In this document: in pieces, positions 41,848-45,951 of the stretch | How the letters are laid out: each line of letters starts with the position of its first letter | Position numbering within the stretch: the stretch's first letter is position 1 | Assembly (NCBI RefSeq): GCF_022761035.1 | Contig: NZ_JAKWJP010000001.1 | Location: forward strand, 682,001 to 746,000 | Origin: Microbacterium sp. SS28 | GTDB taxonomy: Bacteria; Actinomycetota; Actinomycetes; Actinomycetales; Microbacteriaceae | DNA: 64,000 bases | Reading direction: 5' to 3' | Translations under genes and position numbers: made by a program | Notes under the pieces: generated by a model | Seen by the model: the letters and a program-made list of their open reading frames with translations, nothing else | What the model was told of the DNA's origin: nothing | Database searches by the model: none

Positions 41848-41956
41848 GCTTCCACCCTGCCGTGGGCGGCGCGGGGGCACAGCATCCGTCCGTCGTACCG
41901 GCCATCCGCCATTCGGTGGACCCCGCAACGACCATGGAAGGCACAGCCCGCACCGG

Positions 41957-41962
41957 TACGCT
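41957..41962 (+). promoter_or_regulatory. -10 box of the aspartate aminotransferase gene
   Basis: TACGCT seven bases before GTG 41970; leaderless arrangement. The -35 is not clear. Confidence 0.5.
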
Positions 41963-41969
41963 CGAAACC

Positions 41970-43172
41970 GTGACCGAACGCGCTCCCCTGTCCCGCAAGC
42001 TGTCCGCCATCGCCGAGTCCGCGACCCTCAAGGTCGATGCCAAGGCCAAGGCGCTCCAGGCCGCAGGTCGTCCCGTCATCAGCTACGCCGCCGGCGAGCC
42101 CGACTTCTCGACTCCGCAGTTCATCGTGGATGCCGCGATCGAGGCCCTCCACGACCCCGCGAACTACCGCTACACGCCCGCCGTGGGCCTCCCCGTGCTG
42201 CGCGAGGCGATCGCCGCCAAGACGCTGCACGACTCGGGCCTCGAGGTCTCGCCGTCGCAGGTCGTCGTCACGAACGGCGGCAAGCAGGCCGTCTACCAGG
42301 CCTTCCAGGCGGTCGTGAACCCCGGTGACGAGGTTCTGCTGCCCGCCCCGTACTGGACGACGTACCCCGAAGCGATCGCGCTCGCCGACGGCATCCCGGT
42401 CGAGGTGTTCGCGGGCGCCGACCAGGACTACAAGGTGACCGTCGAGCAGCTCGAAGCCGCGCGCACCCCGCGCACGACGGCGCTCGTCTTCGTGTCGCCC
42501 TCCAACCCGACCGGCTCGGTGTACTCGCCCGAAGAGACGAAGGCGGTCGGCGAGTGGGCCGTCGAGCACGGCATCTGGATCATCTCGGACGAGATCTACC
42601 AGAACCTCGTCTACGAAGGCACGCGCGCCGTCTCGATCGTCGAGGCGGTCCCGGATGCCGCATCCCAGACGATCCTCGTCAACGGCGTCGCCAAGACCTA
42701 CGCCATGACGGGTTGGCGCCTGGGCTGGATGGTCGGCCCCGCCGACGCCATCAAGCTCGCAGCCAACCTGCAGTCTCACCTCAGCTCGAACGTCAACAAC
42801 GTCGCGCAGCGCGCAGCGCTCGCCGCGCTGACCGGCCCGCAGACGGAGGCCGAGGAGTTCCGCCTCGCGTTCGACCGGCGCCGCAAGCTCATCGTGTCGG
42901 AGCTCGGCAAGATCGAGGGCGTGACCGTGCCCAACCCGCTCGGGGCGTTCTACGCGTACCCCGACGTGCGCGGCCTGCTCGGTCGCGAGTGGCGCGGCAA
43001 GCGCATCGAGACGTCGCTCGAGCTCGCCGACCTCATCCTCGAAGAGGCCGAGGTCGCGGTCGTGCCGGGCGAGGCCTTCGGCCCCTCCGGCTATCTGCGT
43101 CTCTCGTACGCCCTCGGCGACGAGGCACTCCTCGAGGGCGTGCAGCGCATGCAGGAGCTCTTCGCGTCCTGA
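41970..43172 (+). CDS. aspC: Aspartate aminotransferase (class I/II PLP)
   Basis: 400 residues. [33 protein letters not shown] and the PLP Lys in [17 protein letters not shown] (near 245) mark a subgroup Ib aspartate/prephenate aminotransferase. It exchanges amino groups between aspartate and 2-oxoglutarate, supplying amino acid synthesis. The frame is open upstream to 41862, but the leaderless GTG gives the family N-terminus [21 protein letters not shown] repeat array starts nine bases after its stop. Confidence 0.93.
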
Positions 43173-43180
43173 CGCGGCCC

Positions 43181-43320
43181 GCGCCGATTCTGGCCACTCG
43201 CCATAAAGTGCGACCTCAACCCGCGCATTTCGGCGACTCGCCGGAACTCGCTGGGCTGCGCATTCTGGCGAGTCGCCACGAAGAGCTGCCTGCACCTGCG
43301 CATTTCGGCGACTCGCCGGA
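43181..43320. repeat. Upstream array of palindrome-bearing ~41-bp repeats
   Basis: Four diverged units start at 43181, 43223, 43258 and 43298. Each begins GCGC[C/A] followed by TTCTGG or TTTCGG and carries a palindrome around GGCGACTCGCC (variants GGCGAGTCGCC, GGCCACTCGCC). Units two and four are identical over 23 bases. The same family recurs at 44391-44706, on the other side of the DUF559 gene. Confidence 0.8.
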
Positions 43321-43436
43321 ATGCGCCGGGCTTGGGAGCGGCATCCGGTCCTCCACAACAGGGCTGGCCGGAACGGTGTCCACGAGTCCCGTCGGCAGGC
43401 ATATGCGCGCTCGGATCCGCATGAGACTCGACGGTC

Positions 43437-44891
43437 ATGCGAGCCTCAGATATTCCGACGGAGCTTCTGCCCGCCTTCGTCGTCGCCCAGGCGCTCGAGG
43501 CCGGTGTTCCGGCCGCCCGGCTTCGTAATGCCGATCTCACTTCTCCTTTCCACGGCACTCGCGCGATGCAGCCGCTCACCCCTGTCGAGCGCCTGAACGT
43601 CCTGATGAGAAGGGTCCCCGATCACGCCTTCGTCTGCGGGCCCACTGCCGGGCGGCGATTCGGGATGCCGCTGCCTCGACAGATGGAACGTGACGCGTAC
43701 ATCACTCCCATGTTGGGCGTGCCGCTGCCGCACAATCGCATCCGTCGGGCGGGGACCCGCGGTCGCGCGCTCCGAATCGCGGACGGCGACGTGATCGAAC
43801 GACAGGGCCTGCGGACGACCAGCGTCGAACGCACGTGGCGGGATCTCTCTGCCGAGCTGACGCTCAGCGCACTCGTCGCCGTCACGGACCATGTCATCTC
43901 ACGACGCCGGAAGCTCACGACGATCGAGTCGCTGAGACGGCACCATGCGGACGCAGGGCACACCCCAGGACGGTCGCTTCGCGGGCAGGCACTCGAGTTG
44001 TGCACACCGCACTCCGAGTCCCCACGAGAGTCGGAGTTGCGCGTCCTGCTCGTCCTCGCCGGTCTGCCCACGCCCGCGTGCAACGTGAGAATCTACGACG
44101 GGAGTCGTTTCGTCGCGCGCGTGGACATGATCTACGCGAGCGCGAGGCTCGTGATCGAGTATTACGGCGACTATCACCGCGACGCGGACCAGTGGAGCAG
44201 AGACGAATCTCGACGAGCCGAGCTCGAATCGCTCGGCTACCGCGTGACAGTCGTCACGCGCCGCGACTTCGATGATCCCGCGGCGTTCGCGGCCCGCATC
44301 CGTCGCCTTCTCGAAGCCTCACGGCGCCCCGGGCGGCAGCCCGCCAGTGAGGCCGTTGCGAGTGCGCCGACTCTCACGGCAATCCTTGGCGCGCCGATTC
44401 TGGCGACTCGCCACGAACCGTCGCCCACACCCGCACTTCCTGGCGACTCGCCAGAATCCGCGACCCGAACCCGCATATCTTGGGGACTCGGCGCGAATGG
44501 GCCCGTCCTACCGTGCGCCGATTCTGGCGACTCGCCACGAACCGTCGCCCACACCCGCACTTCCTGGCGACTCGCCAGAATCCGCGACCCGAACCCGCAT
44601 ATCTTGGGGACTCGGCGCGAATGGGCCCGTCCTACCGTGCGCCGATTCTGGCGACTCGCCACGAACCGTCGCCCACACCCGCACTTCCTGGCGACTCGCC
44701 AGAATCGACAAAGGCCAACGCCAGACGAGAGCGAGCGCGATCCTGCGGCGAGAGGCGGCGACGCGACGAGACGAACGCCCGGACGCGGCGATCGCAGGGG
44801 TTCGAGCGGCTCGACTAGAGCTCGACGCCGACGAGCACGGGCTCGGGCTGCAGCAGCAGGCCGAACTCGGACTGCACGCGGCCCTGGATGA
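43437..44891 (+). CDS. DUF559 endonuclease-like protein, C-terminus extended through repeats
   Basis: 484 residues as read, of which about the first 300 look like a real protein. Residues 1-190 resemble the N-terminal part of actinobacterial proteins often annotated AbiEi-like/DUF559, with a helix-rich VERTWRDLSAELTLSALVAVTDHVI. Residues 195-295 carry a Vsr-like PD-(D/E)XK fold: E198/E200, D230 (ARVDMIY), E241 (VIEYYGDYHRD) and a trailing VTVVTRRDF. From residue about 319 the frame runs through 124-bp tandem repeats and beyond, overlapping the murB end by 77 bases. The native stop therefore seems lost or displaced by the repeats. The start ATG 43437 lacks a clear Shine-Dalgarno. DNA cleavage activity is inferred from fold only. 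Confidence 0.7.
   Translation: MRASDIPTELLPAFVVAQALEAGVPAARLRNADLTSPFHGTRAMQPLTPVERLNVLMRRVPDHAFVCGPTAGRRFGMPLPRQMERDAYITPMLGVPLPHNRIRRAGTRGRALRIADGDVIERQGLRTTSVERTWRDLSAELTLSALVAVTDHVISRRRKLTTIESLRRHHADAGHTPGRSLRGQALELCTPHSESPRESELRVLLVLAGLPTPACNVRIYDGSRFVARVDMIYASARLVIEYYGDYHRDADQWSRDESRRAELESLGYRVTVVTRRDFDDPAAFAARIRRLLEASRRPGRQPASEAVASAPTLTAILGAPILATRHEPSPTPALPGDSPESATRTRISWGLGANGPVLPCADSGDSPRTVAHTRTSWRLARIRDPNPHILGTRREWARPTVRRFWRLATNRRPHPHFLATRQNRQRPTPDESERDPAARGGDATRRTPGRGDRRGSSGSTRARRRRARARAAAAGRTRTARGPG
44391..44706. repeat. 124-bp tandem repeat (2.5 copies) built from ~41-bp palindromic units
   Basis: Copies start at 44391, 44515 and 44639 (the last partial). The first two look identical by eye. 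Each 124-bp copy is itself three diverged units of 41, 40 and 43 bases, whose cores read TGGCGACTCGCCA, TGGCGACTCGCCA and a degenerate TGGGGACTCGGCG. Because 124 is not a multiple of three, each copy is read in a different frame, yet all stay open. Same family as 43181-43320. Confidence 0.9.
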
Positions 44892-45951
44892 AGCGGGCGA
44901 GCTCGGCGAGCTCGGCGGCACGGGCTCCGCCGCGGTTCGTCAGCGCGAGCGCGTGCTTGCTCGACAGGGCGGCGCGCGAGCGCGGCAGCTTGAAGCCCTT
45001 GCGCACGCCCGCCTGCTCGATGAGCCACGCGGCGCTCACCTTGACGTCGGCGCGCTCCGAAGGCGCGGGCGGCACGTAGCCGTCGAACTGCGCGAGCGGG
45101 ATGACCAGGACGGGATCGAGATCGGGCGCGACGGGCCAGCGCGGGCACTCATCCGGGAGAGTCAGAGCGAAGGATGCCGACACCACGGCGTTCTGGAAGA
45201 ACGAGCCGGCGCTGTACGTGTCGGGGTCGGCGTCGTCGAGCACCATGCCCTTGCGGCGGCGCGTGTCGAGGACGTGATCGCGGATCCAGGCGACCGTCAC
45301 GGCCTGATCCCCCGTGAGCCCGAGGGCCGAGCGCAGCTGGGCGCCCGCGATGGGGCGCTCGGCGTGCCCCACCTCCGCGAGCTCGAGCGTGACCGACAGG
45401 ATGACGGCGGAGCGCAGCGGCACCGACCCGTAGTGGTGCTTGAGGACGGAGGTGCGGAAGCCGAGCCCCAGGTCGGCGGCCGCCACCGTGACGGGTGCGG
45501 AGGCGCCTTCGTCGAGCAGGTCGACCTCGACGAGGGTCTGCACGATCTCCTGGCCGTACGCGCCGATGTTCTGCACGGGCGCGGCGCCGATCGTCCCAGG
45601 GATCCCCGACATCGCCTCGATGCCCGCGAGGCCCTCGGCGACGGCGTAGGCGACGACCTCGTCCCAGTCATGGCCCGCCTGCACGCGCAGGCGTGCGAAG
45701 CCCGGCCGGGGTGACGGCATCCGTTCGATCCCGCGCGTGAGGATGCGCACGACCGTGCCGTCGAACGGCTCGTCGCCCGCGAAGAGATTGGACCCGCCGC
45801 CGAGCACGAGCCACTCGTCGCCGTCGCCCCATACATCGGTGAGGGCGTGGATGAGCTCGTCAGCGGTGTGCGCGTCGATCATGCGCGCGGGGATGCCGCC
45901 CGTGCGCAGCGTCGTGAGCTGTGCGAGCGGAAGGGGCTCGACGTCGGGCAT
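44815..45951 (-). CDS. murB: UDP-N-acetylenolpyruvoylglucosamine reductase
   Basis: 378 residues, FAD enzyme of peptidoglycan precursor synthesis. LTTLRTGGIPARM, LVLGGGSNLFAGDE (FAD binding), GIEAMSGIPGTIGAAPVQNIGAYGQEI and the catalytic Ser in YSAGSFFQNAVV are intact. The start lies three bases after the hadB-like stop, so it is co-transcribed with the two dehydratase genes. The C-terminus reaches into the repeat-extended frame of the convergent gene. Confidence 0.97.
   Translation of the reverse strand: MPDVEPLPLAQLTTLRTGGIPARMIDAHTADELIHALTDVWGDGDEWLVLGGGSNLFAGDEPFDGTVVRILTRGIERMPSPRPGFARLRVQAGHDWDEVVAYAVAEGLAGIEAMSGIPGTIGAAPVQNIGAYGQEIVQTLVEVDLLDEGASAPVTVAAADLGLGFRTSVLKHHYGSVPLRSAVILSVTLELAEVGHAERPIAGAQLRSALGLTGDQAVTVAWIRDHVLDTRRRKGMVLDDADPDTYSAGSFFQNAVVSASFALTLPDECPRWPVAPDLDPVLVIPLAQFDGYVPPAPSERADVKVSAAWLIEQAGVRKGFKLPRSRAALSSKHALALTNRGGARAAELAELARFIQGRVQSEFGLLLQPEPVLVGVEL

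Follow-up and report, generated by a model that had tools for sequence, protein, structure and literature searches.

Between the conserved neighbours aspC and murB, Microbacterium sp. SS28 carries a gene for a DUF559/MTES_1575-type nuclease that is bracketed on both sides by palindromic repeats. We analysed it in a window of 64,000 nucleotides (the whole stretch of contig NZ_JAKWJP010000001.1 from position 682,001 to 746,000; coordinates below are those of the window) and followed gene and repeats into other genomes. An earlier note on this DNA had counted four palindromic units before the gene and eight after it, and the positions of the palindromes bear this out. Copies of TGGCGA[C/G]TCGCCA, or near variants, start upstream at 43191, 43231, 43266 and 43306, and downstream at 44401, 44441, 44525, 44565, 44649 and 44689, with degenerate units near 44483 and 44607. 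The features of the interval are collected in Table 1.

Table 1. Genes and repeats of the aspC-murB interval, in window coordinates.
Feature	Position	Strand	Details
aspC-like class I/II aminotransferase, conserved left neighbour	41862..43172	+	Open reading frame list; Pfam Aminotran_1_2 E 4.4e-69; start codon unchecked
Upstream hairpin 1	43182..43250		Arms 43191-43203 (TGGCCACTCGCCA) and 43231-43243, spacing 40 bp
Upstream hairpin 2	43258..43326		Arms 43266-43278 and 43306-43318, spacing 40 bp; DNA fold -28.3 kcal/mol, z -6.4
DUF559/MTES_1575-type nuclease, AbiEi-like middle region	43437..44319	+	Ortholog-conserved part ~294 aa; frame open to 44891
Downstream hairpin 1	44392..44462		Arms 44401-44413 and 44441-44453; DNA fold z -5.9
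Degenerate palindrome unit between hairpins	44473..44500		GGGGACTCGGC
Downstream hairpin 2	44516..44586		Identical copy within 124-bp tandem repeat
Second degenerate palindrome unit	44597..44624		GGGGACTCGGC
Downstream hairpin 3	44640..44707
murB, conserved right neighbour	44815..45951	-	Convergent to DUF559 gene

With up to two mismatches and both strands counted, the palindrome pattern matched 21 times in the window against 5.9 expected, a number reached by 0 of 100 shuffles, and just three of these matches lay outside the arrays. Two palindromes spaced 40 bp apart make up the natural unit and form a single hairpin of ~70 nt with a variable spacer between its arms; for the two window hairpins that were folded as DNA (z in Table 1), 0/200 shuffles were equally stable. 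The downstream array (44391-44706) is a 124-bp tandem repeat in 2.5 copies, two of which are identical and probably reflect a very recent duplication. The window frame lacks the stop of its orthologs (~residue 294, ~44319) and reads through the downstream hairpins to 44891, overlapping murB; as judged from the reading frame, the protein may carry a repeat-encoded tail of ~190 aa. An Rfam scan confined to 42500-45500 gave a single chance-level match.

To follow the repeat beyond the window, we scanned its own genome (4.44 Mb) on both strands and found 57 palindrome matches with ≤1 mismatch, compared with 12 for the reversed pattern; most palindromes count twice in such a scan. Beyond the two DUF559 flanks, the matches lay mostly at eight sites, usually as 40-bp-spaced pairs. 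Eight isolated single matches are probably due to chance, and both of those fetched as examples sit within called genes. Among 366 Microbacterium genomes, the exact arm pair occurred in eight (reversed-pattern control, 0), with 1 to 34 exact pairs per repeat-bearing genome. The 19-nt palindrome was found in nine; the ninth genome (G129) has a single copy and does not belong to the 61 genomes in which DUF559 is matched at E ≤ 1e-40.

All eight repeat-bearing genomes have one ortholog of the window gene at aspC-murB (the gene itself or 58-60% identity), with palindromes on both sides (≤1 mismatch). Orthologs at E ≤ 1e-79 were present in 47/366 genomes. The earlier note had also suggested that repeats and gene were amplified together; this finds no support, given the occurrence of repeats alone and the single match per genome that the gene gives at E ≤ 1e-40. 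The check it proposed, whether copies lie preferentially beside DUF559 genes, comes out negative if taken literally, because most copies are located away from such genes and the window palindrome is absent at 22 examined paralog loci (19 distinct places); what stood is that most paralogs bear a palindrome of their own. Specifically, other DUF559 alleles at the same locus in other genomes have different hairpins whose arms agree between the two sides, e.g. GTCGACTCGCCA, GTGAGTCGCCA with TTGTCGC, and GTGAGGGGTCA with CTGTCGC, and paralogs at ~30% identity mostly show yet other repeats on both sides. For this, 22 further loci were scanned and the flanks of 13 of them were read; exact-palindrome counting in L263-L284 missed hairpins that reading of the flanks revealed.

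We quantified this bracketing by comparing the 350 nt before each gene with the 350 nt after it. Flank similarity exceeded the 95th percentile (33) of 141 control genes at 42 of 48 Microbacterium loci, and the control maximum (41) at 36 of them, one further locus equalling it; the 48 are loci with at least 200 nt of flank, without the duplicate places L253, L258 and L259. A set of 21 control genes of low coding score reached at most 39. In a second comparison, 47/58 matched flank pairs, those of named Arthrobacter, Tsukamurella and Collinsella genes among them, lay above the 99th percentile (36; maximum 49) of 1824 cross-locus pairs, i.e. upstream and downstream flanks of different DUF559 genes less than 40% identical. 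DUF559/MTES_1575 matches in the window's genome number 5 to 9 depending on the query; five further genes of this genome scored 110 (L048), 52 (L049), 69 (L050) and ≤34 (L051 and L054), with 1.4-kb flanks measured from the domain match and thus including part of the gene.

The same rule extends to other genera. In named records, 9/10 DUF559-family genes had similar flanks (Arthrobacter, three; Tsukamurella, four; Collinsella, one; gut phage scaffold, one), with Nonomuraea as the sole exception, while 14 annotated neighbour genes scored ≤28; the boundaries of unannotated genes are approximate in this comparison. Most of these genes lie between copies of a private repeat, as a rule a two-armed hairpin of ~57-65 bp whose spacer is not conserved. 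The gene on the gut phage scaffold, which is unverified, is a distant homolog of a DUF559 paralog.

Solo copies of these private hairpins were also found, although a hairpin matches a BLAST query on both strands and the places therefore exceed the true copy number, with two places for most copies in Tsukamurella and Arthrobacter. The Tsukamurella hairpin had 19 places in eight records of one species (an estimated ~10 copies, two home and ~8 solo), that of Arthrobacter ten places in two records of one isolate (~5 copies estimated, one copy being on the other replicon), and that of Collinsella seven places in one record (5 to 7 copies), of which five lay within the 25 kb examined (four at the gene, one solo) and two were unplaced. 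No other genus matched these three hairpins among 72,556 plasmid records. All seven fetched Tsukamurella solo copies start 2-31 bp past an annotated gene end, 5/7 of them between convergent genes, and the Collinsella solo copy lies 42 bp past a gene end. Six Tsukamurella copies (two home, four solo) are exactly 64 nt long, with near-identical 23-nt arms and 18-nt loops that are all different; copies L383, L426 and L427 are more degenerate. In Tsukamurella tyrosinosolvens (L379-L382, L351), the loops differ in every copy compared.

Which of the two, species or nuclease allele, determines the repeat type was addressed with two near relatives, G068 and G019, which have another DUF559 allele with a different hairpin at aspC-murB and from which the window palindrome is absent. 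In the murB tree, G068 falls among seven repeat-bearers (0.984, for a clade excluding G000 and G019), its exact sister being unsupported, and G019 is nearer to the repeat-bearers than G000 (0.818). Protein comparison bore this out for G068: counting only matches above 60% identity, the median was 87.5-88.9% against four repeat-bearers (11-31 proteins per genome) and 78.8% against the genome of the window (32 proteins). In the DUF559 tree, by contrast, the eight repeat-bearers form a clade (0.995), and G068 and G019 stand together elsewhere (0.985). The hairpin type of G068 itself occurred nine times in 800 kb of that genome (seven at the DUF559 locus, two elsewhere; reversed-arm control, 0), and window-type doublets were absent there. 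It is the allele of the nuclease, and not the species, that the repeat follows.

Solo repeats in Microbacterium sit mostly at gene ends. Of 50 counted clusters, 48 lay 3′ of one or more called genes; the orientations of their neighbours were +- 19, ++ 16, -- 13 and -+ 2, against a background of 42, 91, 76 and 48 respectively. The count comprises clusters of at least two units (for most genomes, among the places listed) that lie away from DUF559 home loci, outside called genes, and within 400 bp of a neighbour in the stretch; cluster L176/L307, which was present twice, was omitted in both copies, and genes were called by a GC-frame score made for this analysis. Near hairpin clusters of G028 (L108, L111), we also noted a further intergenic repeat family, with peptide strings VVERARYERDE in six-frame translation.

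These sites turn over. At seven of the eight other repeat sites in the window's genome, the corresponding gene ends were repeat-free in 3/3 relatives; the relatives were three of the seven other repeat-bearing genomes, and lysR was placed by matches of 51-53% (possible paralogs) and hemA by matches of 54-59%. Between the close relatives G335 and G338 (93-96% DNA identity beside the sites), arrays of ~480 bp and ~258 bp are filled in one genome and cleanly empty in the other. Judged by eye, each array stops 9-12 bp short of the stop codon of a frame on the minus strand whose C-terminus looks plausible; the gene caller did not call these two frames, and by eye no target duplication is obvious at the two filled/empty sites. 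G335 and G338 also differ at one and the same chromosomal locus (L371, L362): the DUF559 genes there belong to two families, and their hairpins differ as well, as if one family had been replaced by the other.

One way to read these sites is that hairpin, gene and hairpin move together as a transposon that ends in the hairpins, and that solo hairpins are scars of gene loss by recombination between them. The bracketing of the genes, the different DUF559 families at one locus in G335 and G338, and the related alleles L269 and L272, which have their own hairpins in stretches that showed neither aspC nor murB, would all fit. We consider this quite unlikely nevertheless, as up to 34 exact pairs per genome stand against one cognate gene, many solo sites are tandem arrays, and no target duplication was obvious to the eye at the two filled/empty sites.

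A plainer possibility is that the hairpins act as common bidirectional terminators or belong to the repetitive extragenic palindromes (REPs) of the host, and that DUF559 genes merely settle in permissive intergenic sites. Gene-end placement, the strength of the hairpins and a conserved site at galE, to which we return below, agree with this. However, terminators have no need of identical arms, no matching repeats were seen up- and downstream of control genes, the repeats are gene-specific, and their type goes with the DUF559 allele even against species relationship; such a bystander role is very unlikely. An early verdict in its favour, reached when the palindrome had been seen at eight other sites of the window's genome and near no other DUF559 gene, was overturned by the ortholog search and inspection of the flanks.

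In published REP systems the resident gene, where present, is a Y1 transposase, the RAYT (REP-associated tyrosine transposase), according to the available parts of the reports (PMC3733652; PMC2817692; PMC8266576). A scan of 84,980 species for the palindrome pair, with the 40-bp spacing fixed in the pattern, yielded 102 stretches, of which the 80 listed comprised 24 from Microbacterium (jejuense, yannicii, kyungheense and sp. CPCC 204701), 53 from Opitutia/Puniceicoccaceae metagenome-assembled genomes (MAGs) and three singletons. A phage origin found no support, as the doublet occurred in 0 viral contigs and the homolog search linked the window protein to nothing viral. Marine Verrucomicrobiota (L116-L195, the Opitutia/Puniceicoccaceae MAGs among them) possess REPIN-like doublets with the core GGCGASTCGCC and 40-bp spacing, a match that may be due to coincidence or to a common structural constraint; no shared origin is proposed.

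It might be argued that the repeats owe their spread to a RAYT or some other transposase, the DUF559 gene being incidental. The marine Opitutia MAGs share the core and the 40-bp spacing, and Y1 transposase matches were present in 7/7 of their genomes tested (1-19 per genome); in addition, a Collinsella record with repeats of the kind described above holds an IS200/IS605 transposase gene. The spacing in Opitutia is no independent evidence, because it was preset in the search pattern. Moreover, Y1_Tnp (PF01797) was absent from 8/8 repeat-bearing Microbacterium genomes, other transposase families not having been searched for, and the 69 Microbacterium doublets have outer and inner flanks alike, with no GTAG/GGAG-type tag, unlike the 58 Opitutia doublets with their GGAG-like outer flanks. 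We regard such a transposase-driven spread as extremely improbable. Membership of the repeats in the RAYT/REPIN family was rejected on the missing Y1_Tnp and the missing tag.

What the resident protein itself resembles was examined with profile searches. Three residues, E198, E241 and G244, never vary across 52 proteins (loci with a broken frame left aside), and four others, D230, H247, Q252 and D256, are shared by 46-50 of them. A family profile built from 31 of the 52 matched the structures 3hrl (1.3e-6) and 3r3p, a 'mobile intron protein' (1.8e-4); we take 3r3p to be I-Bth0305I. The window protein passed Pfam DUF559 (22.1 bits; gathering cut-off, 20.6) and did not reach MTES_1575 (21.5 versus 38.2). 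Its middle region matched PADLOC AbiEi (E 1e-4), and AbiEi models matched up to 16/31 family members (best, 5.7e-18). The window protein had no match in NCBIfam, nor did its single sequence in the PDB; an AlphaFold model of the single sequence reached a mean pLDDT of 41 and was set aside. The AbiEii (DUF1814) toxin is not among the annotated neighbours of the window gene or of the named-record genes, some of which are annotated merely as 'hypothetical protein'.

The AbiEi-like region brings up the main rival explanation, namely that the protein uses it to bind the hairpin as an operator for autoregulation and possibly for global control, so that the protein would be a regulator or a nucleoid or terminator factor with selected solo sites and no mobilisation. 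In the part of the source available, AbiEi and Rv2827c of the AbiE type IV toxin-antitoxin group are described as binding paired 23-bp inverted repeats in their own promoters (PMC7319586). The breadth of the AbiEi-type matches is in line with this, as are conserved arms and spacing with a free spacer, which resemble a dimer-binding site, and the downstream position of 48/50 clusters. The operator explanation leaves the downstream copy, the tandem arrays and the clean filled/empty sites between close relatives unaccounted for, as well as the conservation of catalytic residues in 46-52 of the 52 proteins, and we judge it unlikely. The resemblance to AbiEi has further limits: here there are a nuclease domain, repeats that lie on both sides and are dispersed, and no DUF1814 toxin among annotated neighbours, and the two 23-bp repeats of the known members, as far as that source describes them, are 3 or 13 bp apart, a geometry from which the hairpins differ (PMC7319586).

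The repeats are linked to the DUF559 genes, dispersed beyond them, specific for the allele, and conserved in arms and spacing. We consider it probable, on sequence grounds, that gene and hairpins constitute one REP- or 'REPtron'-like element in which a Vsr-like nuclease (PD-(D/E)XK, EDxHD-type) replaces the Y1 transposase. Similar to the REPtron, as known from the accessible parts of its literature (PMC3733652; PMC2817692; PMC8266576), a single resident gene is flanked by a palindromic repeat dispersed in the genome, the repeats are extragenic and mostly at convergent or unidirectional gene ends, there are several gene/repeat families per genome, and the palindromes are paired at fixed spacing. 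The differences, within the same limits, are the nuclease with its AbiEi-like region in place of a Y1 transposase in eight genomes, the lack of a GTAG tag, the lower copy number and the free spacer sequence. The earlier note had likened the locus to REPs and RAYT genes with a different protein; this likeness is well supported by the two-sided bracketing, by the same rule in most paralogs and other genera, by the solo copies and by repeats that follow the allele, although the Y1 enzyme and the tag that define the REPtron are absent.

Homing endonucleases provide the second point of comparison. I-Bth0305I, an EDxHD homing enzyme, is reported, in the part of the paper available, to dimerise on a target of nearly 60 bp (PMC3943268), and the hairpins here measure 57-65 bp; the catalytic domain is related by profile (3r3p, 3hrl), with conserved E, D, E, H and D. 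In contrast to that enzyme as described there, the gene lies outside any intron or gene, between complete sites, and does not split its own target, and the sites are hairpins at gene ends; the aspC-murB loci retrieved included none free of the gene. In the proposed REPtron-like element, a protein dimer would recognise both hairpin arms, the free loop favouring recognition of the arms only. We infer that the nuclease may bind, cleave and mobilise the hairpins: it would cut or nick a hairpin, and hairpins would be copied to new sites through repair. If a cut solo hairpin were repaired with the hairpin-gene-hairpin locus as template, the gene would move in the manner of homing, and recombination between the flanking hairpins could leave solo copies behind.

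Several observations weigh against this interpretation. Its weakest point is that the loops differ in every Tsukamurella copy compared, which simple whole-hairpin copying would not lead one to expect. Binding of inverted repeats by an AbiEi-like repressor would explain the upstream copies, but neither the downstream nor the solo ones. The 3′ end of galE (L042, L323, L325, L326) keeps its repeats in 3/3 relatives with no DUF559 gene called adjacent, so the DUF559 flanks are not the sole conserved repeat site, and the filled/empty sites of G335 and G338 could be precise losses. Flanking is weakest in G248 (one copy upstream, three downstream), the downstream copies of G028 and G136 lack the exact core, and the flank repeats of Tsukamurella L354-L356 are not clean hairpins. 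The flank-similarity cut was missed by 11/58 loci, among them the G248 and G136 orthologs and Nonomuraea, and many of the 58 loci are orthologous, so the counts are not independent. The co-segregation of repeat and allele amounts to two swaps (G068 and G019) and single-gene trees. Genera other than Microbacterium provided few solo copies (~8 in Tsukamurella and fewer in the others). Finally, the IS200/IS605 transposase gene of Collinsella aerofaciens (L425, 22884-23342) lies ~10 kb from the DUF559-type gene, and a Y1 enzyme could play a role there.

Beyond the window, we also regard it as likely on balance, with slightly more reserve, that stand-alone AbiEi-like/DUF559 genes across Actinomycetota represent a second, RAYT-independent class of REPs, in which each gene would bracket itself with a private ~60-bp dimer-site hairpin that spreads to gene 3′ ends, gene and hairpin being swapped jointly. 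Text searches of the literature, whose coverage leaves out most subscription journals, returned no description of DUF559 genes with such repeats, and we rate the system as categorically new, its mechanism aside. A further counterpart is the CGTC-tagged REPs, said in the accessible part of the report to lack a dedicated transposase (PMC3733652): both are palindromic REPs without a known dedicated transposase, but the present repeats have no general CGTC tag and do have a candidate resident gene. If the interpretation is true, a dedicated enzyme would be in hand for at least some bacterial REP families now without one, and, provided that co-inheritance with private dispersed hairpins holds, a nuclease of an unrelated superfamily would have arrived independently at the REP life style. 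This would assign a function to DUF559/MTES_1575 genes and provide a large natural collection of nuclease/60-bp-site pairs with specificities that genome sequences would reveal.

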